In this document: one piece after another, positions 18,140 to 33,501 of the stretch
Layout of the letters: the number at the start of each line of letters is the position of its first letter
Numbering within the stretch: position 1 is the first letter of the stretch
DNA from: an uncultured Gammaproteobacteria bacterium
GTDB taxonomy: Bacteria; Pseudomonadota; Gammaproteobacteria; Arenicellales; CALHMG01
Direction of reading: 5' to 3'
DNA length: 48,536 bases
NCBI GenBank assembly: GCA_938034705.1
Contig: CALHMG010000039.1
Location: forward strand, 1 to 48,536
Notes under the pieces: model-generated
Seen by the model: the letters and a program-made list of their open reading frames with translations, nothing else
The model's database searches: none
What the model was told of the DNA's origin: nothing
Position numbers and translations under genes: made by a program

Positions 18140-18180
18140 AACTGGACACACACAATTGATCTCTGAACTGGACACACACT
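18140..18180. repeat. Two direct copies of AACTGGACACACAC at the truD 5' end
   Basis: AACTGGACACACACA at 18140-18154 and AACTGGACACACACT at 18166-18180, 26 bases apart. The shared core GGACACACAC is the same as in the inverted-repeat elements at 23689-23808 and in the pstS leader. No matching inverted arms were found here, so this looks like a partial copy. The second copy lies inside the longest truD reading frame and would encode ELDTH. Confidence 0.7.
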
Positions 18181-19262
18181 CATTGGAACCCTTCGGTAGA
18201 CAGGCACCGTACGCCTGGGTGAGCCCGGGTGAGCCACCTGCTGCCCGCGGCCGAATTCGCGTGGTCCCCGAGGACTTTGTGGTGATCGAAGAGCTCGGTT
18301 TTGAGCCGGATGGTGACGGGCCGCACCTGCTGGTGTGTGTCACCAAGCGCGAGAAAAACACGGTTGAAGCAGCGCACTGGTTGAGCTCGTTAACGGGTGC
18401 CGCGGTTCGCGACATCGGCTATTGCGGGCTAAAGGACAGACACGCAGTGACGACTCAGTGGTTTAGCGTGCCTGGGGACGCCGCAACAGCACAGAAACTG
18501 CAGGATCGCGAAGCAACCGGTTTTAAGGTGGATCAAGTGGCAGCGCACGGTCGCAAGCTTCGCCGCGGCGTCCATCTAAGAAACACCTTCAGGCTTCGTG
18601 TCCACGGTTTGCAGGACACACACTCAGCTGACTGTGCGCGACGGCTGGCACAGATTGCTGAGCGCGGAGTGCCCAACTATTTTGGCCCTCAGCGCTTCGG
18701 GCCGGATGGTGACAATGTTCGTGCGGCCCTCGAAATGCTGCTTTCGGGCAGGCGACCCAAACGCCGAGGGACCAGAGGCATACTGATGTCATCCCTCCGA
18801 TCTGCGTTGTTTAATCTTGTTCTGTCGCGACGAGTCTCAGATGACACGTGGGATTCGTTCATCGAGGGTGATCTGGTCGCCATGTCGGGTTCGCGAAGCC
18901 ATTTTCCGGTGGAACTGTCAGATGCAAATCTCGATGCAAGACTGAATGCGGGGGACATACACCCAACGGGTCCCATGTGGGGCGCCGGCGAGAACCTGGC
19001 GTCCGGTGTGTGTCTACAAGTGGAAGAAGATGTTCTGTCGGGTGCCGGCACGATTCGCCGCGCGCTGGAATCCGCTGGGCTTAAACAGGAAAGACGACCG
19101 TTGCGTTTGCTGCCATCCGATTTCGAATGGGTCGTGGAAGATTCTGGTGATCTGGCGATCAGTTTCGGATTGTCGCCCGGATCCTATGCAACGGCGGTGC
19201 TTCGAGAGCTGGTTATCCTCGATGGCGACGTACGGCCGTGGGGTCTGGCGGAGAGACCATAG
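18156..19262 (+). CDS. truD: tRNA pseudouridine synthase D
   Basis: About 368 residues. Converts U13 to pseudouridine in tRNAs. The conserved catalytic Asp is Asp94 in GYCGLKDRHAVT, and the N-terminal VPEDFVVIEELGFEPDG and central GVPNYFGPQRFG motifs are classical for the family. The start is uncertain: no ATG precedes the conserved region. The TTG at 18156 gives the longest product, and a TTG at 18183 would begin with EPFGRQAPYAW; neither has a clear ribosome-binding site. The two candidates flank a repeat copy, which may have altered the original 5' end. Several further GTGTGTGTC-like strings occur inside the gene (18332, 18614, 19005). Confidence 0.93.
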   Translation: MISELDTHSLEPFGRQAPYAWVSPGEPPAARGRIRVVPEDFVVIEELGFEPDGDGPHLLVCVTKREKNTVEAAHWLSSLTGAAVRDIGYCGLKDRHAVTTQWFSVPGDAATAQKLQDREATGFKVDQVAAHGRKLRRGVHLRNTFRLRVHGLQDTHSADCARRLAQIAERGVPNYFGPQRFGPDGDNVRAALEMLLSGRRPKRRGTRGILMSSLRSALFNLVLSRRVSDDTWDSFIEGDLVAMSGSRSHFPVELSDANLDARLNAGDIHPTGPMWGAGENLASGVCLQVEEDVLSGAGTIRRALESAGLKQERRPLRLLPSDFEWVVEDSGDLAISFGLSPGSYATAVLRELVILDGDVRPWGLAERP

Positions 19263-19363
19263 CAACAAGAGCGACGAAAGACGCCGCTCCGGTCCAGCTG
19301 CAATCTACTAAATTGGCCGGACGATCTGGATTTTCCGAAGAGGAAACTGATGTTGCGGACTTT

Positions 19364-20326
19364 TTAAAGTTCGGCTTTTCGATAGAGGATCGACCGTCCA
19401 CGCATGTCGCGCGATGAGAGCCTGCCGGTTTGTTCCATATACTCGCTGTAGGCGTCGCTGTTCCCGGCGGCGGATCTGAACAAGTCTAGAAAGTTTCTTG
19501 TGACCGTGCTCCAACCGCTTTTGGACAGGCCGATTCGTCGGAGCGCTTTCGAGAAACTGGCTTTCCTGGCGGAGTCCTCAATGTGTTTGTGTTCAGTCCA
19601 GTGGATGAGTGCGAAATAGGAGTCTTCAGAAATCGAAAGCTCCTGCGCGTTCTGGTCGTCTGAAAATACCGGTCCAAGTTTTTTCTTTTTGGGATTCAGA
19701 TCGTTGTCGAAATACCGACCAATGCGCCGCTTAACTGACGTGTAACGGGCAAACGATATTTGTGACGGTGCTGTTGTGCGCACCGGATTTAGATCTACGT
19801 ACGCCATGCATGCGAGAACAGCGCCTTCATCGAGCAGCGGGAGCGCCTTGAATCGACTTTCCCAGAAGTGGCCTTTGCAACCGTCCTCGGCGTTTGCCAG
19901 GCGGGCCGCAGGTTCGTTTATGGCTTTCATGAACCAGCTGAGGTCGCACAGTCGCCGCCGCCATCCATCGATGGTTTCTGGTTTGGTTCCCTTCATTGAA
20001 ATTTCAGCGGCAGGTCGTTTTCTCCACGTGAATACGCGCTGCCAACGTTCAACGATCTCGCGATCAGATAGTTTTTTGATCCGGTCCGGATCCAGATAAA
20101 TCACCAGGTGATAGTGATTGCTCATGATGGCGTACGCGTAAACATCGACGCCAAAGATCCCCGTCAGCATCTCAATGCGCTCAACCATCCAGTCGCGGCG
20201 GTGGTCAAAAGACTGCCCGGTTTCTCTGTCGAATCCACACAGATGTGCCCGACGGACGCATCTCGAGATGCAGTGGTAGAAGCCGGGTTTTCCAGGAAGA
20301 ACGGTCAGGTGACGGGGTTTGGGCAT
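19364..20326 (-). CDS. REP-associated tyrosine transposase (RAYT, Y1/HUH family)
   Basis: 320 residues. A Y1 transposase-type domain is seen from about residues 14 to 190. The HUH motif is HYH at 71-73 (MSNHYHLVIYL), and the candidate nucleophile is Tyr176 in CMAYVDLNPVRT. N-terminal FYHCISRCVRRAHLCG is a hallmark of the RAYT subgroup with a C-terminal extension. These proteins act on single-stranded DNA and are thought to spread short palindromic repeats, not complete insertion sequences. No terminal structures of an IS200/IS605 element were recognised around it, but a strong hairpin and a GTGTGTGTCC arm lie 82-128 bases upstream of its start. The frame is intact, so it may be active. Confidence 0.88.
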   Translation of the reverse strand: MPKPRHLTVLPGKPGFYHCISRCVRRAHLCGFDRETGQSFDHRRDWMVERIEMLTGIFGVDVYAYAIMSNHYHLVIYLDPDRIKKLSDREIVERWQRVFTWRKRPAAEISMKGTKPETIDGWRRRLCDLSWFMKAINEPAARLANAEDGCKGHFWESRFKALPLLDEGAVLACMAYVDLNPVRTTAPSQISFARYTSVKRRIGRYFDNDLNPKKKKLGPVFSDDQNAQELSISEDSYFALIHWTEHKHIEDSARKASFSKALRRIGLSKSGWSTVTRNFLDLFRSAAGNSDAYSEYMEQTGRLSSRDMRGRSILYRKAEL

Positions 20327-20407
20327 GTCGGTCTCCAGTGCGTAATTGAATCAACGCTTTGGAGATTCCCCGATTTGCCGGTGGGGAGAAAAGTCACGTG
20401 TGGTTTT

Positions 20408-20454
20408 AGCCACACCCGGTGTCTGTCACCGGCTGTGGCTCAGAGTGTGTGTCC
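20408..20454. repeat. REP-like hairpin plus GAGTGTGTGTCC arm upstream of the RAYT gene
   Basis: Stem of 14 positions with 13 pairs: 20408-20421 with 20427-20440, single mismatch at 20415/20433, loop TCTGT. Directly after it, GAGTGTGTGTCC (20443-20454) repeats the core of the dispersed family. A second competing hairpin GTGTGG/CCACAC uses 20398-20415. No T-run follows in either direction, which argues against a plain terminator for the nfeD operon, although an RNA-end role is possible. Confidence 0.65.
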
Positions 20455-20478
20455 TTGTTCGGTGCTGTCGCAGTGACG

Positions 20479-20922
20479 TCAGGCCGGTTCGACTTCCAGA
20501 ATGACGCCGTCGACGCGAACCACCTTCACATCTTTGCCGGCACCGATGTCCGGTCCCCGCACCTTCCACATGGAGTCATCCACCTTGATTTTGCCGACGC
20601 CGTTGATGATGGGGCTCGAAAGCGTGAACGTCCGGCCTATGTACTGCTGGCCGCGTCGATTCAACGCTGGCTGATCGGTCGACTCGACCTTGTTGCCACG
20701 CCACATCTTCCACGCGATCACGGCGAGCAGAGACAGCACGGCGAAGAGGATCATCTGGACCTCCCAACTCATGCTGGGAATGAGTAGCAGCAGTAGACCT
20801 ACCACCGCAGCCGCTGCGCCCATCCAGAGAAAAATCGCGCCTGGAGCCAATGTCTCGAGGATCAGCAACACAACCGCCGCGATCCACCAGTGCCAGAAGG
20901 TGATGAGTTCTAACATCGCCAT
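20479..20922 (-). CDS. NfeD family membrane protein, short form
   Basis: 147 residues. Three to four membrane helices in the first 70 residues (with ETLAPGAIFLWMGAAAAVVG), then a C-terminal OB-fold domain (YIGRTF...GVGKIKVDDSMWKVRG). This is the short NfeD type without the serine-protease domain (YbbK/QmcA partner). It begins 12 bases after the stop of the stomatin gene, an arrangement conserved widely between SPFH proteins and NfeD; the pair likely forms a membrane complex involved in membrane-domain organisation. Confidence 0.9.
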   Translation of the reverse strand: MAMLELITFWHWWIAAVVLLILETLAPGAIFLWMGAAAAVVGLLLLLIPSMSWEVQMILFAVLSLLAVIAWKMWRGNKVESTDQPALNRRGQQYIGRTFTLSSPIINGVGKIKVDDSMWKVRGPDIGAGKDVKVVRVDGVILEVEPA

Positions 20923-20934
20923 AGTGGTTCTCCG

Positions 20935-21867
20935 TTAACTCTTTTTGTCGCTGAAAGTTTCTTTGGCGATTTCGGCGATTCCGCCGAGAGACCCGATGAC
21001 GCTTGAAGCCTCGAGGGGCATGAAGATAACTTTCTGATTTTCGGCGCTTCCGATCTTGCCAAGAGCTTCCATGTACGACTGCGCGACAAAATAGTTGATC
21101 GCCGTCGCGTCGCCCTGTGATATCGCCTGGCTGACCATGTGGGTGGCCTTGGCTTCAGCTTCGGCTTCGCGCTCGCGGGCTTCAGCATCTCTGAACGCAG
21201 ATTCCTTGCGGCCTTCTGCATCGAGAATCGCTGATCGTTTTTCACCTTCAGCGCGCAAGATCTCACTCTGACGCTGACCTTCGGCTTCCAGGATCGACGC
21301 TCGCTTTTCTCGTTCAGCTTTCATCTGACGCGCCATTGCTTCGACGAGTTCAGGCGGTGGTGCAATGTCCTTGATTTCGATTCGGGTAACCTTGATTCCC
21401 CAGGGACTGGTCGCTTCATCTACAACATGCAACAGCGCATGGTTGATCTGATCTCGTTTTGACAAACTCTCGTCGAGATCCATCGAGCCGAGCACGGTTC
21501 TGATGTTGGTCATGGTCAGATTCAGGATTGCACGCCGAAGATCGCGGACTTCATACGCGGCTTTCGCAGCGTCCAGAACCTGGAAGAAGACAACTCCGTC
21601 AACTTTGACCATCGCGTTGTCTTTAGTGATGACTTCCTGCGAGGGTACGTCGAGGACCTGCTCCATCATGTTCATTTTCGCGCGGACGCGATCCACGAAC
21701 GGGATGATGATGCCGAGACCGGGTCGCATCGTTCGGATGTATCGACCAAATCGTTCAACCGTGAACTCATAGCCCTGAGGAACGCGCTTTACGCCTTGTG
21801 TCAGGACAAAAATCGCCAGAACGACGAGAACGAGTGCAAAGGTTGCACCGCCTGTGATCAAACCCAT
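20935..21867 (-). CDS. qmcA: SPFH/stomatin family protein, QmcA-like
   Basis: 310 residues from the ATG at 21867, which follows the strong ribosome-binding site GGGGAG seven bases upstream. An N-terminal membrane helix (about 3-23) is followed by the SPFH/Band-7 domain ([15 protein letters not shown] ... [10 protein letters not shown]-like region), then an EA-rich coiled coil (about 190-255: repeated E-A-E-G-E/R-K-R units), typical of stomatins. It assembles as oligomers on the inner membrane facing the periplasm. Downstream is nfeD, 12 bases away, the usual operon partner. A 7-bp hairpin CAGCAGC/GCTGCTG lies in the leader just upstream of the ribosome-binding site. Confidence 0.92.
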
Positions 21868-22094
21868 GTGTTTTCTCCCCTGCAGCAGCCGTCGATGTTT
21901 GCTGCTGTTTGTCAGTAGTCTCCGGTGTGTTCCTCGAGACGCCCGAAGAGGTAGCGGCAAACCGCATCGCCTGCGCTCTCGGGTACTGTATTAATGGTGT
22001 TTCTGCGGTGTTTTTCAATGTCTCACAGTCGAAAAATGGCGAGATTCGTCTGAATTCGCGAGATTCCCGCCAAACGGCGTCGTATTCTTAAGCA

Positions 22095-22111
22095 AGAGGA
22101 CCTACGCCATC
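22095..22111 (+). promoter_or_regulatory. Strong ribosome-binding site with ATC codon upstream of the annotated ppx start
   Basis: AGAGGA at 22095-22100 sits eight bases before an ATC codon (22109-22111) that is in frame with ppx. The first canonical start codon in frame is GTG at 22163, which has no clear ribosome-binding site. ATC could be a rare start, or the site may serve a leader peptide or be coincidental. The 295 bases between qmcA and ppx hold otherwise only the qmcA leader hairpin. Confidence 0.4.
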
Positions 22112-22162
22112 TCATCCATCCGTTCAACAAAGCCGCAACCGACGCTCGCTGCAACAGCGAAA

Positions 22163-23674
22163 GTGCCTGTCACCGATCAGGGTGATTCCCTGCTGGCGAC
22201 CGTTGATTTGGGGTCTAACAGCTTTCATATGGTCGTTGCTCGTGAGGAGTTTGGGCAGCTCGTGATCATTGACCGACTTAAGGAAATGGCCCGACTTTCA
22301 GGTGGCCTGGACGAAGAAGGGTGGCTGGATGAGGCATCACAGGTCCGTGCGCTTGAGTGTCTGTCCAGATTCGGGCAACGGTTGCGGGGAATTCCGCCCG
22401 AACGGATCCGGGTGCTCGGGACCAGCACATTGCGACGCGCACGGAACAGTCGAAAATTTCGCGCAAGAGCCGCTGAGTCTTTGGGGCATCCGGTAGAGGT
22501 GATATCGGGGCGCGAGGAGGCTCGGCTTATTTATCTTGGTGTTGCCGGATCGCTTGGGTTCGATGATTCGCCTCGTTTTGTTGTCGACATCGGTGGCGGC
22601 AGCACGGAAGTCATTGTTGGCAGGCAATTCAAGGCCAGGCGACGTGAAAGCCTGGAAATGGGCTGCGTCAATTTCACCAGGAAATTTTTCCCGGACGGGC
22701 GGATCACTCAAAAACGAATGAACAAGGCGGTTCTGGCCGCTCGGGTTGAAATTGAGCCGATCGCGAAGCTGATTCGCGATGAAAACTGGGTGGAAGCCAT
22801 CGGCTGTTCGGGCACGATCAGAGCAGCTGCCGCAGTCGCCGAAGCAAGCAATTTCAGTGACGACGGTTTGTCAAAGTCGGCACTCAACGATCTGGTCAAG
22901 GTTGTCGTGAAGGCAGGGTCGGTTGATGAGCTCAACTTTAAAGGGTTATCGGTCGATCGACAGCTTGTGTTTCCCGGCGGGGTGGCGATTCTCGCGGCGG
23001 TTTTTGATGAGCTCGAAATCGATCATATGTCGGTCAGCGACAAGGCGCTTCGCGAAGGCGCTCTGTTTGATCTAAAAGGGCGACTTGAGGACGATGATGT
23101 TCGCGAGACCGCGATCGCCGGGCTCTGCGCGCGCCACGGCGTTGACGTTGTTCATGCAGAAAGAGTCAAAGAAACCGCACTGATGCTGTATCGGCGTGTC
23201 TCGAGTTCGTGGGAGCTCGATGACGAGTCGTATTACGACATGCTGCGGTGGGCCGCGTGGGTTCACGAAATCGGGTTTGCGGTCTCACATCTCAAATACC
23301 ACAAGCACGGTCAGTACTTGATTGAAAACGCCGATCTGGACGGGTTTTCGGATCAGGAACGAACGATGCTGGCGACGCTCGTCCGCTCTCATCGGCGACG
23401 TCTCGATCTGCAGGTTTTCAACGAGGTCGGCAGTGAAAACCACGAGGCTGTAATTCGGTTGGCGCTGCTGCTGCGGCTTGCGGTGCTCCTCAATAGAGGT
23501 CGGATCGATACGGCGCCCAGTGATCTCGTCGTCACCGCCGGCCGCAAGCGCATCACTCTCAAGTTTCCGCAAGGCTGGCTCGACCAGCACCCGCTGACAC
23601 AGGAAGATTTACTGCAGGAACGCGATTTCGTGGCCAAGTGTGATTTCAAGATCTCGGTGAAAAGCCAGTCCTGA
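22163..23674 (+). CDS. ppx: Exopolyphosphatase, Ppx/GppA family
   Basis: 503 residues. Hydrolyses terminal phosphates of polyphosphate (or pppGpp for GppA). The ASKHA actin-like fold is clear: phosphate-1 motif VDLGSNSFHMVV at the N-terminus and phosphate-2 motif FVVDIGGGSTEVIVG at about 136-150. The acidic catalytic residue expected at E121 of the E. coli enzyme is matched by the GREEARLIYLG segment. A C-terminal HD-like region (ARHGVDVVHAERV ... AAWVHEIGFAVSHLKYHKHG) is also in place. Assignment as Ppx, not GppA, rests on length and on the neighbouring ppk. The GTG start is the first canonical start; the unusual ATC at 22109 is a possible alternative. Cytoplasmic. Confidence 0.9.
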   Translation: MPVTDQGDSLLATVDLGSNSFHMVVAREEFGQLVIIDRLKEMARLSGGLDEEGWLDEASQVRALECLSRFGQRLRGIPPERIRVLGTSTLRRARNSRKFRARAAESLGHPVEVISGREEARLIYLGVAGSLGFDDSPRFVVDIGGGSTEVIVGRQFKARRRESLEMGCVNFTRKFFPDGRITQKRMNKAVLAARVEIEPIAKLIRDENWVEAIGCSGTIRAAAAVAEASNFSDDGLSKSALNDLVKVVVKAGSVDELNFKGLSVDRQLVFPGGVAILAAVFDELEIDHMSVSDKALREGALFDLKGRLEDDDVRETAIAGLCARHGVDVVHAERVKETALMLYRRVSSSWELDDESYYDMLRWAAWVHEIGFAVSHLKYHKHGQYLIENADLDGFSDQERTMLATLVRSHRRRLDLQVFNEVGSENHEAVIRLALLLRLAVLLNRGRIDTAPSDLVVTAGRKRITLKFPQGWLDQHPLTQEDLLQERDFVAKCDFKISVKSQS

Positions 23675-23688
23675 GCCGACCCCACAAC

Positions 23689-23808
23689 ATGGACACACAC
23701 CGTTCAGGACAATGTGGACACACACTGTTCCAACCGGGTACAGGGGCTGTCATGTCGCTCGGTGTGTGTCCACTTGGTGTCTTGCGCCACTGCTGAGTGT
23801 GTGTCCAT
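23689..23808. repeat. Nested inverted repeat (REPIN-like) between ppx and ppk
   Basis: Outer arms ATGGACACACAC (23689-23700) and GTGTGTGTCCAT (23797-23808) and inner arms GTGGACACACAC (23714-23725) and GTGTGTGTCCAC (23762-23773) pair perfectly over 12 bases each. At the first position the outer pair is A-T and the inner G-C, a compensatory change that supports pairing. The element lies entirely between the ppx stop and the Pho-box promoter of ppk. It could act as a 3' end or as a boundary hairpin for ppx mRNA. Arm sequence and nested layout are shared with the pstS leader element. Confidence 0.8.
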
Positions 23809-23855
23809 CTATCGGGACGTGCCGAATTTGAGGCTCCTGAAAAGTGTGTGGCCCT

Positions 23856-23901
23856 GTGTCATCGTTTTGTCACATTAGGCCGATGGGTGGTGGCATATAA
23901 T
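23856..23901 (+). promoter_or_regulatory. Candidate Pho box and -10 hexamer for ppk
   Basis: Two 7-bp repeats four bases apart: GTGTCAT (23856-23862), spacer CGTT, TTGTCAC (23867-23873). Each half matches the PhoB consensus CTGTCAT/C at six of seven positions. A perfect TATAAT lies at 23896-23901. The gap from box to -10 is 22 bases, one helical turn longer than the usual 10-11, so activation by PhoB may be weaker or use an unseen third repeat. Confidence 0.6.
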
Positions 23902-23939
23902 GAAGCTGCGCACCTCGCAACTAACGCCTTGAGGCATTG

Positions 23940-26210
23940 ATGACCGCTAATTCTGACGACGCCCACGCTCTTGATCTCGACGCCGACGCGTCGCGTCGCG
24001 AGAGTGAATCGGCGCTCAGTCCGCACGGTCGATCACAGCACATCGACACCCGTCCGCGCACGCCGACACTGGCCGGTCCCTTTACAGCGGACACGCGCGA
24101 TCTCGACGATTCTCAGCTGTACCTGAACCGAGAGGCGACGTGGCTGTCGTTTAACTGCCGCGTGCTCAACGAATCCAAAGACCCGCGCACACCACTGCTT
24201 GAGCGCATGAAGTTCCTCGCAATCGTTGGCAACAACGTCGACGAATTCTTCATGAAGCGTATCGGCGGCTTGAAGCAACAGATTGGAGCGAACGTCAGTC
24301 GCCTCACCGTCGATGGGCGAACACCCATCGAGCAAATCGACATGTGTCGCGAAATGGTGAACGAGATTGAGAGTGATATCGAATCACTGGTCCCTCGAAT
24401 TCTCGATGAGCTCAAGACGCACAACATCTTCGTCTCCAAATTCGACGATCTCGACGGCGCCGATAAACAGTGGCTGCGCGACTACTATGTGCGCAATGTG
24501 TTTCCTCTGCTGACGCCTCAAGCCGTCGACCCGGCTCATCCGTTTCCGTTCATCTCAAACCTGTCGCTAAACCTGCTGGTGACGTTGAAACACCCGAACG
24601 ACGACGAACTGCTCGCAGCCCGCGTAAAGGTGCCCGCCGGTGACGGTATCGACCGCTTCGTGGGCGTGCGTGACACGCACAACTTCATTCACCTCGCCGA
24701 CGTCATCGCCGCAAACCTGGATTTGCTGTTTCCGGGCATGGAAATCATTTCTTGCAAACGCTTTCACCTGACGCGCAACGCGCACACGGACCAGGACAGT
24801 GACAGCTCCGGTGCCGAAGACCTGCTGGAGGTTATTGAATCCGAACTGCGCAATCGCCACTTTGCGCCAATCGTGCGGCTTGTCGTCGAGCGCTCAATGG
24901 ACGAAGAGAGCCGTTTGCGACTGGCGAACGAGCTTGCGCTCGAATCGACCGACGTCTACACCACCGATGGCGTTCTTCCGGTAAGCGACTGGATGGAGAT
25001 TGCAAACATCAACATCCCGGAGCTTCACGACCCGGTGCATCGTCCGGTAGATCATGCGAGAATTGACGAGACTCGCAACATCTTCGATCAGATCCGGGAG
25101 ACGGGTCCGTTTTTGCTGCATCACCCTTACGAATCGTTTTCGACAACGGTTGAGCGATTTTTGCGCGAGGCCAGTTGCGACCCGAAAGTACGTGCGATCA
25201 AGATGACGCTTTACCGGACTTCGAACGAGTCCAAGATCATCGAATATCTGATCGACGCCGCCGTCAACGGCAAGCAGGTTGCGGTTGTTGTTGAACTCAA
25301 AGCGCGTTTTGACGAGGCCGCGAACATTCGCTGGGCCGGTCGACTTGAAAAAGCCGGCATTCATGTGACCTACGGCATTGTTGGGCTCAAAACCCACACC
25401 AAAACAACGCTGGTTATCCGCAACGACAACGATGGCCTGAAACGCTACGCCCATATCGGCACCGGTAACTATCATTCCGGCACCGCTCGGCTCTACAGCG
25501 ATCTCGCGATCCTGACCAGCGATGCACAGACCGGCCGTGATCTGACTGAACTCTTTAATTACCTCACGACCGGTTTCTCGGTTGCTCGCCACTACCGCAA
25601 GTTGCTGGCGGCTCCCACGGCTCTTAAAAAGGCGCTCATCAAAAAAATTCAGCGCGAAGTCGAGCTCGTCAAACATGGCGAACGTGGTCTGATTCGATTC
25701 AAGCTCAACGGGCTCGAAGATCCGGACATTTCCCGTGAGCTTTATGCCGCATCTCAACAGGGTGTAAAGGTTGAACTGCTGATTCGCGATACCTGTCGTC
25801 TGCGACCCGGTATCCCTGGGCTGTCCGAAAACATAACTGTCGTCAGCATCGTTGGACGATTTCTCGAGCATTCGCGAGTCTACTATTTTCGCAATGGCGG
25901 TAACGACGAGTACTACATCGGCTCGGCGGACGCGATGACTCGCAATCTTGAACATCGTGTCGAAGTCGTTACTCCGGTTGAGTCAGAACAAAATCGCCAT
26001 GAGCTTGCGATCATGCTCGACCTCCAGTTTGCGGACCGACGTTGCGGCTGGGAGATGGCGTCCGATGGCAGCTATGTCCAGCGACGAAGCGTAGACGCCA
26101 ACATCACGGGCAGTCAGCAGCAGCTGATTGAACTCGCCGAAGCACGCGCGCGCACCGCAGAGCGCCAGCGACGACGCACGGTGTGGCCGACCCCCGACCG
26201 ACTCTCCTGA
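23940..26210 (+). CDS. ppk: Polyphosphate kinase 1
   Basis: 756 residues from the ATG at 23940 (GAGG upstream); a TTG one codon earlier is possible. Makes polyphosphate from ATP reversibly. The four-domain PPK1 fold is recognisable: N-terminal YLNREATWLSFNCRVLNES (about 61-79), head domain, and the two phospholipase-D-like C-terminal domains. The phosphorylated histidine is His486 in GLKTHTK, followed by HIGTGNYH (505-512). The second active-site His is His644 in FLEHSRVYYF. A diverged, charged extension of about 55 residues precedes the conserved part. Membrane-associated or cytoplasmic homotetramer in related bacteria. A Pho box is seen upstream and ppx precedes it on the same strand. Confidence 0.95.
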   Translation: MTANSDDAHALDLDADASRRESESALSPHGRSQHIDTRPRTPTLAGPFTADTRDLDDSQLYLNREATWLSFNCRVLNESKDPRTPLLERMKFLAIVGNNVDEFFMKRIGGLKQQIGANVSRLTVDGRTPIEQIDMCREMVNEIESDIESLVPRILDELKTHNIFVSKFDDLDGADKQWLRDYYVRNVFPLLTPQAVDPAHPFPFISNLSLNLLVTLKHPNDDELLAARVKVPAGDGIDRFVGVRDTHNFIHLADVIAANLDLLFPGMEIISCKRFHLTRNAHTDQDSDSSGAEDLLEVIESELRNRHFAPIVRLVVERSMDEESRLRLANELALESTDVYTTDGVLPVSDWMEIANINIPELHDPVHRPVDHARIDETRNIFDQIRETGPFLLHHPYESFSTTVERFLREASCDPKVRAIKMTLYRTSNESKIIEYLIDAAVNGKQVAVVVELKARFDEAANIRWAGRLEKAGIHVTYGIVGLKTHTKTTLVIRNDNDGLKRYAHIGTGNYHSGTARLYSDLAILTSDAQTGRDLTELFNYLTTGFSVARHYRKLLAAPTALKKALIKKIQREVELVKHGERGLIRFKLNGLEDPDISRELYAASQQGVKVELLIRDTCRLRPGIPGLSENITVVSIVGRFLEHSRVYYFRNGGNDEYYIGSADAMTRNLEHRVEVVTPVESEQNRHELAIMLDLQFADRRCGWEMASDGSYVQRRSVDANITGSQQQLIELAEARARTAERQRRRTVWPTPDRLS

Positions 26211-26266
26211 TACCCAGTTCGGGTAACCGAAACCGACCAGTCCTTGTTTGTCAGCAATCGATGTTG

Positions 26267-26300
26267 CTGTAACATTTCTGTCATGCCCAAGAGTTGTAAT
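26267..26300 (+). promoter_or_regulatory. Pho box and -10 hexamer for phoB
   Basis: CTGTAAC (26267-26273), spacer ATTT, CTGTCAT (26278-26284) matches the PhoB consensus closely. Exactly ten bases after it lies TGTAAT (26295-26300), one mismatch from TATAAT. This layout fits a PhoB-activated promoter without a -35 hexamer and predicts a transcript starting near 26307. It favours the ATG at 26328 for phoB over one at 26283 that overlaps the box. Confidence 0.75.
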
Positions 26301-26327
26301 ACCGGTGACGCAACTTCGATCAAGTCG

Positions 26328-27020
26328 ATGCAAACCCGGATTCTAATCGTCGAGGACGAAACAGCCATTCGCGAGATGGTCGTCATGTCTTTGCACCGCG
26401 AAGGCTTTGAGGTTCAGGAAGCCACCGATGCCGCGAGCGCCGGCATCGCGATCGCCGACAAAATTCCAGACCTGGTGTTGCTCGACTGGATGCTGCCCGG
26501 TATGAGCGGCGTGGAGTTCGCCAAGCGCCTGCGGGGCGACGAGATGACTCGCGAACTACCCATCATCATGCTCACCGCCCGTGGCCAGGAGGCGGACAAG
26601 CTCAGTGGATTTGATGCCGGCGTCGATGACTATGTTCCCAAGCCGTTCTCGGTCAAGGAGCTGATCGCGCGAATTCACGCCGTTCTCAAGCGGGCCCGTG
26701 GATTTGGCCCCGATGAAATACTCACCGTCGAACGGCTTACTCTCGATCCCGTCAGCCACCGGGTAACAATTGGCGACGATCAGATCAAAATCGGCCCTAC
26801 AGAGTTTCGTCTGCTACAGTTTTTCATGACCCACCCTGAGCGCGTATATACTCGCGGCCAGCTGCTGGATCGGGTCTGGGGAAGTAATGTCTATGTGGAA
26901 GAACGAACGGTCGATGTGCACATCAGGAGGCTGCGCAAGCTTCTTGAGGCTGCGCAATATGACAAGTTTGTGCAGACGGTCCATGGCACCGGGTATCGAT
27001 TCTCCGTCAAACAATCCTGA
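26328..27020 (+). CDS. phoB: Phosphate regulon response regulator PhoB
   Basis: 230 residues from the ATG at 26328. OmpR/PhoB-type response regulator: receiver domain (about 3-115) with acidic pair near Glu9-Asp10, phospho-acceptor Asp53 in LVLLDWMLPG, Thr83 and Lys105 in VPKPF; winged-helix DNA-binding domain (about 130-228) with LTPTEFRLLQ-like core (IGPTEFRLLQ) and the recognition region VEERTVDVHIRRLRKLL. Activates pst and other phosphate-starvation genes. The Pho box in front predicts autoregulation. phoR follows 18 bases downstream, so they form a phoBR operon. Confidence 0.95.
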   Translation: MQTRILIVEDETAIREMVVMSLHREGFEVQEATDAASAGIAIADKIPDLVLLDWMLPGMSGVEFAKRLRGDEMTRELPIIMLTARGQEADKLSGFDAGVDDYVPKPFSVKELIARIHAVLKRARGFGPDEILTVERLTLDPVSHRVTIGDDQIKIGPTEFRLLQFFMTHPERVYTRGQLLDRVWGSNVYVEERTVDVHIRRLRKLLEAAQYDKFVQTVHGTGYRFSVKQS

Positions 27021-27038
27021 GACCCGGGGCGCGCCTGC

Positions 27039-28406
27039 ATGATGCAGCATCTGTCAGTCGAGCTGCGGCGTGCGGTCTTGTTGCTGCTGCTGGCGCTCGT
27101 CTGCGGCCTGGCAACGGGCGGCCTTGCCTGGTGGCTGGTTGGTGCATTGGCGGTGTTTGTAATACCTCATCTGTACAATCTCGCGCGCCTGAACCAGTGG
27201 CTCACGGCCGGACGCAAAGAAGAACTTCCGGACGCGGAAGGTCTTTGGGGAGATGTGTTTACGCGCTTGCACCACCGCGAACGACGCGTCAACGAACGTC
27301 GTAGACGTCTTTCGCGTCTGCTTGAGCAATTTCAAAAAGCAACTCAGGCGCACCCTGATGGCGTGGTCATCCTCGGTGCTGCCGGCGAAATCGAAGCATT
27401 CAACAATGCGGGCCGGGATCTGCTCGGGCTTCGACGACCGGAAGACCATGGTCGCCCGGTGACCAATTTTCTGCGCATGCCCGAGGTGGGCGCGTTTCTG
27501 GAGTCTTCCGATCCCGAAGAAACCTTGCTGATCGACTCGCCGGTGCGACAGAACCGATCGTTGCTGCTGCAGATCGTGCCGTACGCGAGAGACGGCCAGC
27601 GTCTTTTGATTACGCGCGACGTTACTCGACTCGAGCGTCTTGAAAGAATTCGCCAGGACTTCGTGGCGAACGTCAGTCACGAGCTGAGGTCGCCTTTGAC
27701 GGTTATTAAGGGCTACGCCGAGAACCTCGATGAGCTGGAAAGAGCCGGCAACTTCGCCGACGCCGACGACAGCAGTCGCGCGATGCTCTCGCGATCAATC
27801 GACCAGATTCAGAAAGAATCCGAACGCATGCGGCTGCTCGTCGAAGATCTGCTTGAACTCTCGCGTCTGGAGGCTACGGATGACGACGCTGACAATCAGG
27901 TTGTAAACGTCGACTCCATGATCAAACTGATTGTCGACGAGGCACTCGCACTGGGTGAAGGTCGTCACAGGATCGAGCTTGATGTCGACAACACGCTGGG
28001 CGTTGAGGGCAACGAGCGTGAAATCTATACGGCGTTTTCCAATGTGGTGTTCAACGCTATCAGGTACATGTCGGAGCCTGGTGTTGTTCGTATTTCATGG
28101 CAGCTGCATAACGAACGTCCGCGGCTGGTGGTTTCGGACGAGGGCCCGGGAATTCCTGCTGACGCTATACCGAGGCTGACCGAGCGCTTTTATCGTGTTG
28201 ACGACGGACGTGCGCGGGACGATGGCGGAACGGGCCTAGGTCTGGCGATTGCCAAGCACGTGATGCTGCGGCATGAAGGCAAGATCGAAATCGAATCCAC
28301 CATCGACGTTGGCACTACCGTAAAACTGACGTTTGCACGCACGCTGACCCGCCGCGTCGGCGAATCAGTCGTCAACCTGCCACGCGCTAGCCAAAACGAC
28401 CGGTGA
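27039..28406 (+). CDS. phoR: Phosphate regulon sensor kinase PhoR
   Basis: 455 residues. Two N-terminal membrane helices (about 10-45), a short cytoplasmic helical region, a PAS domain (about 95-190), then DHp with phospho-His214 in [12 protein letters not shown]. The ATPase domain carries the N box [11 protein letters not shown]1 VSDEGPGIP and G2 [12 protein letters not shown]. Autophosphorylates under low phosphate and phosphorylates PhoB; PhoU and Pst hold it in check. The family lacks a large periplasmic sensor, as here. The 3' end overlaps the 3' end of pstB on the other strand by 20 bases. Confidence 0.95.
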
Positions 28407-29268
28407 TGTAGTCTTCCGTGAGCTTGGCGCTCGGGTTGGTAAAGATGTCGTTGGTCGGGCCAACCTCGATCAGCTTGCCCAGGTGAAAATAGGCGGTACG
28501 CTGGGAAACGCGCGCTGCCTGCTGCATTGAGTGAGTCACGATGCAAATCGTGTACTGTTCCCGCAACTCGTCGATGAGTTCTTCAATTCGAGCCGTTGCA
28601 ATCGGGTCAAGCGCCGAGCAGGGCTCGTCCATGAGGATGACTTCCGGCGCGACCGCGATTGCACGCGCGATGCAGAGTCGCTGTTGCTGTCCACCCGACA
28701 ATCCGGTTCCCGGTTGATCCAGGCGATCTTTGACTTCCTCAAACAGACCCGCTTTTTCAAGACTCTGAAAAACCACCTCGTCAGTTTCGGCCTTGGTGCG
28801 CACGAGGCCATGCAGTCGCGGGCCGTACGCCACATTGTCGTAGATCGTTTTCGGAAACGGATTCGGTTTCTGAAAGACCATGCCAACGCGAGCGCGAAGT
28901 TCGACAACGTCAAGGTCGCGCGCATAAATGTCTTTATCGTCGAGTTTTATGGACCCGGTGATACGACAGATATCAATCGTGTCGTTCATGCGGTTGAGGC
29001 AGCGAAGGAACGTTGACTTGCCGCAACCTGATGGTCCGATCATGGCGATAACTTCGTTGCTGCCGATATCAAGGCTGACGTCGATGATCGCGTGGTTGTC
29101 GGCGTAGAAGACGTCGACATCCCGCGCCGTCATCCGTGGATTGTCCACGGTGATGTCGCCTACGGTTTCGTAGCTTTTGAGTTCTTCTTTGGTTTCCGCT
29201 GTGGTGGCCACGCCGTGTTCCGCCTCAAGTTTTCCGGGGCTGAGTATAAACGGATTCAGCGAGTCCAT
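28387..29268 (-). CDS. pstB: Phosphate ABC transporter ATP-binding protein PstB
   Basis: 293 residues. Walker [10 protein letters not shown] (about 77-85), Q-loop near VFQKPNPFP, signature LSGGQQQR, Walker B VILMDEP, D-loop SALDP, and a switch His in [12 protein letters not shown]. Energises phosphate import by PstSCA at the inner membrane. An N-terminal extension of about 40 residues before [16 protein letters not shown] is present, which is common in this lineage. Last gene of the pst operon here; phoU, which usually follows pstB, is absent at this spot and lies beyond pstS instead. pstB lies 106 bases downstream of pstA. Confidence 0.96.
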
Positions 29269-29374
29269 AAGCCCCGGCGGGAATCGCTGTCGCGTTTAGT
29301 GATGATTTCATGTGAGTGTGCTGATCGTACGTTGCAGCGCTATGTGAGTGCTGATTTTCCAAGCAGTGGCTGGC

Positions 29375-30670
29375 CTACCAGCGTCGCTCAAAGCGGCTGC
29401 GCAGCCAGACGGCGAGTCCGTTCATCACCATCAAAAACAGCAGCAGGACAATAATGGCGGCCGAGATTCGCTCGATAAACGCGCGCTCCGGGCTATCCGC
29501 CCACAGATAGATCTGCACCGGCAGGGCGGTGGACGGATCGACGGGCGACTGCGGCACGTCGGCGATAAAGGCCACCATGCCAATCATCAGCAAGGGCGCG
29601 GTTTCGCCGAGCGCTCGCGCCATGCCGATGATCGTGCCGGTAAGCATGCCCGGCATCGCAAGCGGAAGCACGTGGTCTGTCACGGTCTGCATCGCTGACG
29701 CGCCCATGCCCTGGGCCGCTTCGCGGATGGACGGCGGAACCGATTTAAGCGCAGCGCGGCTCGCAATGATGACCGTTGGCAACGTCATCAGGGACAGCAC
29801 CAGGCCGCCAACCAGAGGTGCGGACCGTGGCAGCCCCGCCCAGTTGATGAATATTGCGAGACCGAGCAATCCAAAGACAATCGACGGCACCGCAGCGAGG
29901 TTGTTGATGTTGACCTCGATCAAATCAGTCCATCGATTCTTCGGCGCAAACTCCTCGAGATAACACGCGGCCGAAACCCCGATCGGAAACGACAGCACCA
30001 ACGTCACCAGAAGCGTGTAGATCGAGCCGACCACGGCGCCCCAGATACCCGCGAGCTCCGGCTCGCGCGAGTCGCCGTTGGTAAAGAACGCCTTGTTAAA
30101 CCGTTTTTCAATGCGTCCCTGTTCGTCGAATCGGTCAATCCAAGCGAGCTGGATGTCTTTAACCCTTCGATCGCCTTCGGGTACGTCGCGATCGATATAG
30201 CCTTTAACGAGCATGTCGACGTCGTCATCCGCCGGTACCCAGAACGTTTGCGTCGTTCCGATGATGCCGGGATCCGCAAGCACTGCGTTGCGGATCGTCT
30301 CAGCGGCGCCTGAGCTGACAAGCTGATAGAGCGCCTTTTTCTGCTTGCGCTTCTTTACGTCTGGAAACTCTTTACGCAGGGCCGTCTTTACCATGCCGCC
30401 GTAGTCGGCCGCCCGCAGTATTTTGGGGTCGAGGGTCTGCTTCGGGTCGATTTTGTCCGCGGCGAGATCAACTTCAATCTGCATCATCGTCTGGGACAGG
30501 GCGGTGTAGCCGTTACCGATGATGCTGGCGAACAGCAGAACCAGAAATACAAGGCCGATGCTGATCGCGACCAGGCCGTAAAGCTTGAAACGCTTTTCCG
30601 AACGATGGCGGCGTCTGAGAGACTGCTTCACCAGGCTGGCGGAATCGTTTGACACATTTGAATCAGTCAT
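29375..30670 (-). CDS. pstA: Phosphate ABC transporter permease PstA, long form
   Basis: 431 residues, against about 295 in E. coli. After a cytoplasmic basic N-terminus and TM1 (about 32-55) comes a soluble insert of about 150 residues, probably periplasmic. Five more membrane helices of the permease core follow (about 210-425), including the ABC-binding loop EAAQGMGASAMQTV...LPLAMPG. Long forms with such inserts are known from other gammaproteobacteria. The start overlaps the 3' end of pstC by eight bases, so translation is probably coupled. Confidence 0.93.
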   Translation of the reverse strand: MTDSNVSNDSASLVKQSLRRRHRSEKRFKLYGLVAISIGLVFLVLLFASIIGNGYTALSQTMMQIEVDLAADKIDPKQTLDPKILRAADYGGMVKTALRKEFPDVKKRKQKKALYQLVSSGAAETIRNAVLADPGIIGTTQTFWVPADDDVDMLVKGYIDRDVPEGDRRVKDIQLAWIDRFDEQGRIEKRFNKAFFTNGDSREPELAGIWGAVVGSIYTLLVTLVLSFPIGVSAACYLEEFAPKNRWTDLIEVNINNLAAVPSIVFGLLGLAIFINWAGLPRSAPLVGGLVLSLMTLPTVIIASRAALKSVPPSIREAAQGMGASAMQTVTDHVLPLAMPGMLTGTIIGMARALGETAPLLMIGMVAFIADVPQSPVDPSTALPVQIYLWADSPERAFIERISAAIIVLLLFLMVMNGLAVWLRSRFERRW

Positions 30671-32054
30671 ACTGTTCTCGATATTTCTTTACGACCTGAA
30701 GGGCGATGATATTCAGGATCAATGTGGCGACGAACAGGAGCAGGCCAAGCGCGAACGCGGCCAGGGTTTTGGGGCTGTCGAATTCCTGGTCGCCGACGAG
30801 CAGCGTTACGATCTGCACCGTGACGGTGGTTACCGCCTCGAGCGGGTTGATCGTCATCTTTGCGGCCAGACCTGCCGCCATCACCACGATCATCGTTTCA
30901 CCAATAGCCCTTGAGATCGCGAGAAGCACACCGCCAATGATTCCAGGCAGGGCGGCCGGGATGACGACACGACGGATCGTTTCGGAGTGGGTCGCGCCAA
31001 GCGCCAGCGATCCGTCCCGAAGCGTCTGTGGGACTGCGTTGATCACATCATCCGACAGGGACGACACAAACGGGATAATCATGATGCCCATGACGAGACC
31101 CGCGGCGAGCGCGCTTTCGGACGCAATTTCAATGCCCATGCTGTCGCCCAGACCGCGCAACCAGGGCGCGACCACCAGCGCGGCAAAGAATCCATAAACA
31201 ACGGTCGGGATGCCTGCGAGAAGCTCGAGCGCAGGCTTTGCAAAAGCGCGCAATCGGCGACTGGCGTATTCAGAAAGATAGATGGCCGACATCAGGCCGA
31301 TGGGTACCGCGACCAGCATGGCTATAAACGAAATCAACAGCGTGCCGACAAAAAGCGGCACGGCACCAAACGTTCCGGAGGATCCCACCTGGTCGGCGCG
31401 GATCGCCGTTTGCGGGCTCCACTTCAGGCCGAACAGAAATTCGGCAGGGCTGACTTTGCCGAAGAATCGAACCGACTCGAACAAGACGGACAGAACAATA
31501 CCGATAGTTGTCAGGATCGCGATGGTCGAGCTCGCGATCAACAGAATCATTACCAGTCTTTCGACAAAGTTTCGTGCGCGAAAGCGTGGCGCGACCATGC
31601 GCCAACCGATGAATAGACCAGCACTTCCCAGACCGAGTACCGCAACCGCACGTGCGATGTTTGATAGCGAAACAAGATGTTCGTAGTTCGCTGCCGCGGC
31701 TTTGATTTCCGGTGTCGGGTCGCTGGAAACGATGTTGCCGCTGACGAGGTTCTTGATGTCGTTCATGACGAGACCAAGCCGACTGGGCTCAAGGCTCTGC
31801 AATGCTTCTGGCATTCCGGCGATCACCATGGAGGTGATCACGCGATCCTGCAGCACGATCCAGATGCCGAGTAATAAAAGTGCCGGCACGATGCAGAGCA
31901 ACGCAGTCGTCCAGCCGTGGTAGCGCGGCAGCGAATGCAGCTCGCGAGTGCCTCCGGTGAGGCCCCGGGCCAGATTCAGGCACCGCATTTTCCCGACGTA
32001 GTAGGCCAGTGACGTCAGCAGCAGCAGGGCTATCAGCGTGGTGGTTGGGGTCAC
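30663..32054 (-). CDS. pstC: Phosphate ABC transporter permease PstC, long form
   Basis: 463 residues, against about 319 in E. coli. Two N-terminal membrane segments (about 5-22 and 50-68) with a soluble stretch to about residue 125 precede the permease core, which carries the ABC-binding loop LALGATHSETIRRVVIPAALPG and then ISRAIGETM. Forms the inner-membrane channel with PstA. Preceded by pstS with a 192-base gap containing a terminator-like hairpin, as expected if pstS is made in excess. Confidence 0.93.
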   Translation of the reverse strand: MTPTTTLIALLLLTSLAYYVGKMRCLNLARGLTGGTRELHSLPRYHGWTTALLCIVPALLLLGIWIVLQDRVITSMVIAGMPEALQSLEPSRLGLVMNDIKNLVSGNIVSSDPTPEIKAAAANYEHLVSLSNIARAVAVLGLGSAGLFIGWRMVAPRFRARNFVERLVMILLIASSTIAILTTIGIVLSVLFESVRFFGKVSPAEFLFGLKWSPQTAIRADQVGSSGTFGAVPLFVGTLLISFIAMLVAVPIGLMSAIYLSEYASRRLRAFAKPALELLAGIPTVVYGFFAALVVAPWLRGLGDSMGIEIASESALAAGLVMGIMIIPFVSSLSDDVINAVPQTLRDGSLALGATHSETIRRVVIPAALPGIIGGVLLAISRAIGETMIVVMAAGLAAKMTINPLEAVTTVTVQIVTLLVGDQEFDSPKTLAAFALGLLLFVATLILNIIALQVVKKYREQYD

Positions 32055-32170
32055 GGTATCTGCTCGATAGGGGTTACGGGTGCGGTGGCCGGGAGCTTAC
32101 CGGACCGAACGATTTGGGCAAAGAAGTAACTCTGCGGATTCAGTGGTACCAGTGATAACAACTTCGCCAC

Positions 32171-32197
32171 AAAAAAGACGAGCCACGACGGCTCGCC
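32171..32197 (-). terminator. Intrinsic terminator between pstS and pstC
   Basis: Read on the minus strand, a 6-bp stem CGAGCC (32195-32190) and GGCTCG (32184-32179) with a 5-base loop GTCGT is followed by C and a run of six T (32176-32171). It lies about 50 bases after the pstS stop and some 115 bases before pstC, so it probably attenuates read-through and leaves pstS expressed above the permease genes. It is the best intrinsic terminator in the window. Confidence 0.75.
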
Positions 32198-32245
32198 TGA
32201 TTTTGTTGCGTCTATTATTGCGTCACTCACTGACAGATGGTCGAC

Positions 32246-33295
32246 CTACATCGCCAACGCGTTGAGATTGGCTACGTCCGTGGCAAACTTCTCGCGTTCT
32301 TCGTCCGGCATCGGGATCATGCCCTTGTCGACGAGGTATCCGTCTTCGCCCCAGGCCTTATCGCTTGCGAATTCGGCAAGAAATTCCTTGATGCCCGGGA
32401 TGACGCCTACGTGGGCACTCTTGACGTAGAAGTACAGCGGGCGCGACACAGGGTAGTTGCCTTCTGCGATGTTTTCGAATGAAGGCTCGATGCCGTCGAC
32501 AAAAGATCCGTGAATGGTGTCTTCGTTCTGCTCAAGAAAGCTGTAGCCGAAGATGCCAAGCGCGTCCGGGTTGGCGCCAAGCTTCTGCACGATGAGGTTG
32601 TCGTTTTCGCCGGCCTCAACGTATGCGCCATCTTCTCTGATTGTGTGACACAGGGCTTTGTAGGTGTTCTTGTCAGACTTTTTCATGGCCTTGATGAAGT
32701 CAAACTGATTGCAGCCGCCTTCCATGCCAAGTTCTACGAACGCGTCACGGGTCCCTGAAGTTGGAGGAGGGCCCAGAACCTCGATCTTGATCGCCGGCAG
32801 CGAGGCGTTGACTTCTTTCCAGGTCCTGTAAGGGTTCGCGATCATCTTGTCGCCACCTGCCGGGTCCGGCACATCTTTTGCCAGCGCGAGAAAGATGTCT
32901 TTGCGTGAAAGCTCAAGCTGCTTGGCGTCCTTGGAATTTGCGATGACGATGCCGTCGTATCCCACTTTGACTTCTATGATTTCCTTCACGCCATTGGCCT
33001 GGCACTTGTCGAATTCTGATTTCTTGATGCGGCGCGACGAGTTGGTGATGTCAGGATGCTCAACCCCGACGCCGGTGCAGAAAAGTTTCATGCCGCCGCC
33101 TGAACCCGTGGCTTCGATTTTTGGCGTCTTGTAGCCGGAGGCCTTGCCAAATGTCTCGGCGACAACCGTGGCAAAGGGATAGACCGTCGAGGAGCCGACG
33201 ATGCTGATGAAATCACGGCTCGCGGAACTGGTCTGACTGGTTGTGAGGGCAGTAGCGACCACCGCTGTGGCCAGAATTACACGCTTGTTGATCAC
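32246..33295 (-). CDS. pstS: Phosphate-binding protein PstS
   Basis: 349 residues from the GTG at 33295, which follows AGGAGA at a good distance; upstream in-frame codons would add about 40 residues with no sense as a signal. Signal peptide about residues 1-26 (ALTTSQTSSASR). The phosphate-binding loop IVGSSTVYPFA and a downstream ATGSGGGMKLFC are typical of the PBP-like domain of this lineage; PPTSGTRDAFVELG completes the phosphate-binding site. Periplasmic substrate-binding protein for PstCAB. Expression is predicted from a Pho box at 33484-33501, with the whole leader occupied by a nested inverted repeat. Confidence 0.95.
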   Translation of the reverse strand: MINKRVILATAVVATALTTSQTSSASRDFISIVGSSTVYPFATVVAETFGKASGYKTPKIEATGSGGGMKLFCTGVGVEHPDITNSSRRIKKSEFDKCQANGVKEIIEVKVGYDGIVIANSKDAKQLELSRKDIFLALAKDVPDPAGGDKMIANPYRTWKEVNASLPAIKIEVLGPPPTSGTRDAFVELGMEGGCNQFDFIKAMKKSDKNTYKALCHTIREDGAYVEAGENDNLIVQKLGANPDALGIFGYSFLEQNEDTIHGSFVDGIEPSFENIAEGNYPVSRPLYFYVKSAHVGVIPGIKEFLAEFASDKAWGEDGYLVDKGMIPMPDEEREKFATDVANLNALAM

Positions 33296-33323
33296 GCTCG
33301 ATCTCCTGAATTTTGAGGTCTGT

Positions 33324-33466
33324 CCATAAGGGGGACAGGCACATTTGCGTTGCGGTAAATAAACCTTTTCGGGCTCGTGGACAGACACTTTCCGACGGAA
33401 TGAGTGTGTGTCCACTTCAGTTGTTCCCTTCGGGGCGGCGTGGTGAGTGCCTGTCCCCTTAAGTGG
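33324..33466. repeat. Nested inverted repeat (REPIN-like) in the pstS leader
   Basis: Outer arms GGGGACAGGCAC (33331-33342) and GTGCCTGTCCCC (33447-33458), perfectly complementary over 12 bases and flanked by diverged CCATAAG and TTAAGTGG. Inner arms GTGGACAGACACT (33377-33389) and AGTGTGTGTCCAC (33403-33415) with one mismatch, closed by TTCCG/CGGAA around one A. The predicted transcript from the PhoB promoter begins at about 33461, so the element makes up most of the pstS mRNA leader, ending about 25 bases before the ribosome-binding site. The 310 bases between pstS and phoU contain otherwise only the promoter below. Confidence 0.8.
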
Positions 33467-33467
33467 C

Positions 33468-33501
33468 TTTATAGGGGGCGGTTGTTACAGGGATATGACG
33501 G
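33468..33501 (-). promoter_or_regulatory. Pho box and -10 hexamer for pstS
   Basis: On the minus strand CCGTCAT (33501-33495), spacer ATCC, CTGTAAC (33490-33484), then ten bases, then TATAAA (33473-33468). Each half box matches the PhoB consensus at six of seven positions and the spacing to the -10 is ideal. Predicts PhoB-dependent transcription of pstSCAB starting near 33461. A weaker box-like pair for phoU on the other strand (33522-33539) matches poorly. Confidence 0.8.

Follow-up and report, generated by a model that had tools for sequence, protein, structure and literature searches.

A transposase-linked dispersed repeat that probably came to form the pstS mRNA leader in an uncultured gammaproteobacterium

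The window, by which is meant the whole stretch of 48,536 nucleotides analysed here, comes from a draft genome of 5.03 Mb (380 contigs, 85% complete). It includes the genes ppx, ppk, phoB, phoR, pstB, pstA, pstC, pstS and phoU, with pstS adjoining pstC/pstA/pstB and phoU. The start codon of pstS is a GTG at 33295, and the following features were assigned to the gene and to the region ahead of it:

32246 to 33295, minus strand: pstS, phosphate-binding protein (Pfam PBP_like_2, E = 2.3e-50; homologues; gene context)
33296 to 33460, minus strand: predicted pstS mRNA leader, about 165 nt, with the transcription start placed by promoter geometry
33302 to 33307, minus strand: ribosome-binding site (RBS) AGGAGA, from the sequence
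33318 to 33326, minus strand: degenerate fifth repeat copy, TGGACAGAC, downstream of the element
33331 to 33342, plus strand: outer repeat A′, inverted, GGGGACAGGCAC on the plus strand
33377 to 33389, plus strand: inner repeat B′, inverted, GTGGACAGACACT on the plus strand
33403 to 33415, minus strand: inner repeat B, forward in the pstS sense, GTGGACACACACT
33447 to 33458, minus strand: outer repeat A, an exact match to GGGGACAGGCAC in the pstS sense (plus-strand letters GTGCCTGTCCCC)
33468 to 33501, minus strand: pstS promoter, Pho box CCGTCATATCCCTGTAACA and −10 box TATAAA (33473 to 33468), from the sequence, with spacing as in relatives

A preliminary description of this DNA had claimed a nested inverted repeat upstream of pstS, and the arms and distances match that account. 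The outer arms are 12 nt long and 100% complementary, and the inner arms pair at 12 of 13 positions (92%) with a single C-C mismatch. Together, B and B′ make up a 41-bp hairpin unit, which recurs with 88% identity elsewhere in the genome (G000:C356:11112-11152). The degenerate copy sits between the element and the RBS, the latter lying about 25 bases past the outer left arm, where it had been placed before. For the minus strand of 33300-33466, the predicted folding energy is −57.2 kcal/mol, compared with −41.3 ± 3.8 for shuffled sequences (z = −4.2), and the stretch 33324-33466 alone has a z of about −5.4. The predicted fold thus bears out the earlier claim that nearly the whole leader could close into one structure. 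No Rfam family matched the leader. The pstS reading frame is open upstream across the inner hairpin as far as a GTG at 33415 (33295-33415); the signal peptide argues for a start at 33295 instead.

Transcription of the element is predicted from the architecture of the promoter. Seven nucleotides separate the Pho-box AACAAC from the −10 box, as they do in two relatives of the same order whose −10 box is clear, and all three share a block of the form GTCAYAT....TRACAAC, 7 nt, TATAAN. Given this match, the geometry supports well a predicted start near 33460 (33460-33464), 0-4 nt outside the outer arm, in agreement with the PhoB promoter at 33468-33501 and the start near 33461 that had been suggested earlier. 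If transcription begins at 33460, the outer stem would open at nucleotide 3, and the placement of the repeat cluster within the predicted pstS transcript is likewise supported. A simple sigma-70 scan found no promoter, which is no surprise where a PhoB-type promoter lacks a −35 box. A strong hairpin between a promoter and its gene could also act as a transcription attenuator or terminator. However, the scanned region contains no terminator-like site on the pstS strand, and no U-run follows the outer stem, making this explanation extremely unlikely.

The arms had also been assigned to a dispersed repeat family, and genome-wide counts confirm their membership: the family core GGACA[CG][AG]CAC (GGACASRCAC) occurs 130 times, versus 38 for the reversed control. 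The 12-mer GGGGACAGGCAC has 17 copies, versus 0 for its reversed pattern, and at most 3 copies in each of 108 same-order genomes. Base frequencies tabulated over 117 exact copies reveal the 10-nt core, weak preferences at 1-5 bases on each side, and nothing farther out. Among the papers listed by a literature text search for the repeat sequence, the matches were all unrelated. The window, whose 48.5 kb are about 1% of the genome, has 14 of the 130 copies (18143-33458); local spread around a transposase gene, described below, is possible. A further family-like repeat, GGACACACACTCA, lies inside the truD coding region at 18613-18623 and may represent chance or an in-frame insertion.

The arrangement of the repeats was studied in stretches around pattern matches and in a sample of other stretches. 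Adjacent copies mostly point in the same direction, with a favoured step of 25-27 bp, and long arrays reach 6-9 copies; steps of 24-28 bp account for 18 of 67 direct pairs and 6 of 19 inward pairs. Where direction changes, it does so inward 19 times and outward 7 times, and about a dozen clusters consist of a block of plus copies followed by a block of minus copies. One of these is the second cluster of the window:

23684 to 23808, no strand assigned: ++−− repeat cluster between ppx and ppk

Others include +++++−−−− on contig C160 and +++−−−− on contig C31. Most of the other inward clusters fold with z values of about −2 to −9, a few being weaker, while the two direct-only arrays are unexceptional in this respect. 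Strong folding in most other clusters indicates that the hairpin is a property of the family. The pstS leader is one of the dozen or so inward clusters and among the better-folding ones, which leaves room for selection. Spacers in compact hairpins were mostly no more self-complementary than shuffled sequences, the exception being C266:44409 (p = 0.014). Helix covariation was considered and dropped, since the spacers mostly resemble shuffled ones and the single compensatory pair seen on comparing pstS with C356 is insufficient. Two further arrangements were observed. At G000:C17:1-4000 (1009-1155), six direct repeats with a 27-bp period lie inside a long open frame, a period of nine codons that may reflect spread of the repeat within coding sequence. 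At two contig ends, G000:C289:1-3500 (128-515) and G000:C374:1-2500 (69-288), a common repeat block occurs in opposite order, a sign of assembly breakage by repeats or of a duplicated block.

Repeats that are palindromic in pairs and often lie upstream of genes could be operators, that is, sites for a regulatory protein common to pstS and other genes, and the cluster between ppx and ppk is in keeping with this idea. However, the genes beside clusters are functionally mixed (away from the main loci, genes were called by a simple codon score, and their start codons are approximate), and arrays of 6-9 copies associated with a transposase fit mobile repeats better. Moreover, an apparent preference for divergent promoters (p = 0.0008) disappeared against gaps of at least 150 bp (9/14 versus 32/65, p = 0.38). 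A shared operator is therefore very unlikely.

The repeats were probably moved by the product of a transposase gene that lies 13 kb from the pstS leader repeat. It was found with a profile built from RAYT-like proteins of relatives; a Pfam Y1_Tnp search of this genome gave nothing above threshold and missed the open reading frame. The gene and the nearby repeats are as follows:

18143 to 18180, plus strand: two direct family repeats, 26 bp apart, beyond truD on the 3′ side, pointing at the transposase region
19364 to 20326, minus strand: HuH/Y1 transposase gene, TnpA-REP-like, best fit to subclass 2.3, the proposed mover of the repeats
20419 to 20454, minus strand: two family repeats, one exact and one degenerate, immediately upstream of the transposase gene and directed at it

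Matches of the product to NCBIfam REP_Tyr_transpos (E = 5.8e-8) and to Pfam Y1_Tnp (E = 5e-4) fall short of the curated cut-offs. All 21 aligned sequences match NF047646 REP_Tyr_transpos, again below its cut-off, and 13 of the 21 match Y1_Tnp; the HuH and Y---NP motifs are invariant across the aligned homologues, and hhalign against RAYT proteins gave E = 7.9e-21. The window protein is 320 aa long, with HYH at 71 and Y176 in YVDLNP, 105 aa apart, and most homologues are 313-350 aa long with a HuH-Y distance of 105-114. Of 274 genomes sampled from the class, 40 had homologues, and this genome has a second copy, 49% identical, at C72:5178-6110. Solved structures yielded no sequence match to the transposase, and a single-sequence structure model (pLDDT 34) was unusable. 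Quentin et al. (2018) described TnpA-Y1 subclass 2.3 as gammaproteobacterial proteins of about 325 aa with some 110 aa from HuH to Y and a Y---NP signature (PMC6006769). The window transposase resembles this subclass in length (320 aa), motif distance (105), signature and gammaproteobacterial spread, and subclass 2.3 is its best fit.

In this genome the downstream repeats lie more than 1 kb from the transposase gene with truD in between, so the locus is not a tidy flanked unit. Around 31 homologues, occurrences of GGACA[CG]NCA were counted over 400 nt on the upstream side of the gene and 600 nt on the downstream side. Upstream, 31 occurrences point towards the gene and 0 away from it; downstream, 23 point towards it and 1 away; and 24 of the 31 loci have the motif on at least one side. 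The N form of the motif was settled after inspection of the first homologue set. Because the pattern was thus partly shaped on the 31 loci, eight plasmid loci (from Pseudoalteromonas, Aeromonas, Vibrio, Catenovulum, Shewanella, Photobacterium and Saccharobesus) served as the only, and small, held-out set, where the ratio of towards to away was 7:0 upstream and 4:1 downstream. Two Pseudoalteromonas plasmid loci have TGACACCCA variants in place of GGACA[CG]NCA. By comparison, ten RAYT-type loci gave 0 occurrences upstream and 1 downstream, and several of these have the published GGGGWSAS repeats. RAYT genes of another type in same-order relatives (L084, L085, L090 and L091) are flanked by GGGGTCAG or GGGGACAG repeats, which match GGGGWSAS and have tails that vary by genome.

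There are parallels with the TIR repeats and TIRYT transposases, for which Di Nocera et al. (2013) published the motif GGGGWSAS (PMC3733652). In both cases inverted repeats flank RAYT-like HuH/Y1 genes, here at homologues in other genomes, and copies are dispersed as singles, dimers and clusters; the TIR motif itself fits GGGGACAG and GGGGACAC found here. The present family differs in its constant core, GGACA[CG]NCA with variable bases before it, and in its link to a transposase of the subclass 2.3 type; 0 of 26 listed TIRYTs were assigned to that subclass (PMC6006769). The survey of subclass 2.3 reported no identifiable REP-like secondary structures flanking the genes (PMC6006769), whereas most homologues examined here have inward-pointing repeats. 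The family also resembles the REP, BIME and REPIN elements of GTAG-type RAYTs in being short, dispersed and intergenic, in forming hairpins from inverted pairs, and in its HuH/Y1 link. However, the GT[AG]G foot is absent, the 117-copy base table showing the GGACA core only, and a single unit is not itself a palindrome; moreover, GTAG REPs prefer 3′ and convergent sites, while clusters here are largely in long divergent gaps.

The preliminary description had further suggested that the repeat was co-opted at pstS as a 5′ stabiliser or a translational switch. The presence of the repeat in the leader stands. For a switch, the leader would alternate between two folds that open and close the RBS, and the degenerate copy at 33318-33326 can indeed form an alternative 9-bp pairing with the inner left arm (33378-33386). 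However, forcing this alternative fold costs 7.3 kcal/mol, and neither exposure nor masking of the RBS by it was observed. Removing the element leaves the predicted accessibility of the RBS unchanged (mean unpaired 0.24 either way), and the leader matched no Rfam family. The unchanged accessibility leaves the switch unsupported, and there is at best a very slim chance that it exists.

A stabilising role would draw on the known stability of mRNAs with a structured 5′ end, RppH and RNase E requiring single-stranded 5′ ends (PMC3997798). According to this model, the stem blocks both enzymes, makes pstS mRNA last longer during phosphate starvation and owes its retention to selection for that effect. 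The predicted start lies 2-4 nt ahead of the outer stem, and an outer stem opening at nucleotide 3, if the start is at 33460, is the geometry that protects E. coli 5′ ends from RppH and RNase E (PMC3997798). As in the ompA and papA 5′ stem-loop stabilisers, the stem would be at or near the 5′ end and the RBS is not paired with it; the likeness is one of predicted geometry, and the stem here, unlike theirs, derives from a dispersed repeat. Among the clusters, the pstS leader is also the one in which like arms nest best with like (A B B′ A′). Against selection, family clusters beside unrelated genes fold comparably, which leaves co-option unproven, and the start site from which the geometry is read was itself placed by promoter geometry. 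In addition, the family motif is absent from the other pstS upstream regions examined (29 same-order and 14 others, some of them short), relatives having shorter pstS leaders without the element, which as far as seen is specific to this lineage. A 5′-terminal stabilising effect on pstS mRNA is possible, while a stabiliser co-opted under selection is unlikely. The stronger proposal, in which the 5′ end of pstS mRNA is a domesticated cognate inward repeat of subclass 2.3, a kind not recognised before, and prolongs the lifetime of the message upon PhoB induction, is doubtful and distinctly improbable.

Probably, the pstS leader is a transposase-linked miniature repeat that landed in the leader and is passively transcribed. 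Clusters of like architecture recur beside unrelated genes, which makes passive carriage the default. The leader cluster is a non-autonomous, inward-facing member of the GGACA[CG][AG]CAC family, and the repeats would be present or past substrates of the window's HuH/Y1 transposase of the subclass 2.3 type, an enzyme expected to act on single-stranded hairpin DNA. One cluster would have landed or grown between the pstS −10 box and the RBS, leaving both intact, such that the pstS mRNA would open with a repeat-derived hairpin as tolerated cargo. Any side effect may be modest protection of the 5′ end from decay, of the kind provided by the ompA or papA stem, with ribosome binding not under its control.

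Taken alone, the pstS locus would be an ordinary example of a leader that has taken in a mobile repeat. Of greater consequence is the wider finding that a REP-type transposase subclass reported to lack flanking repeats has them in most sampled members. Inward repeats with a common core are the predicted DNA substrate for subclass 2.3 enzymes, and the link to the transposase would explain a dispersed repeat family that otherwise resembles many separate regulatory palindromes. The pstS leader may then serve as a natural test of the effect of such a repeat on mRNA lifetime.
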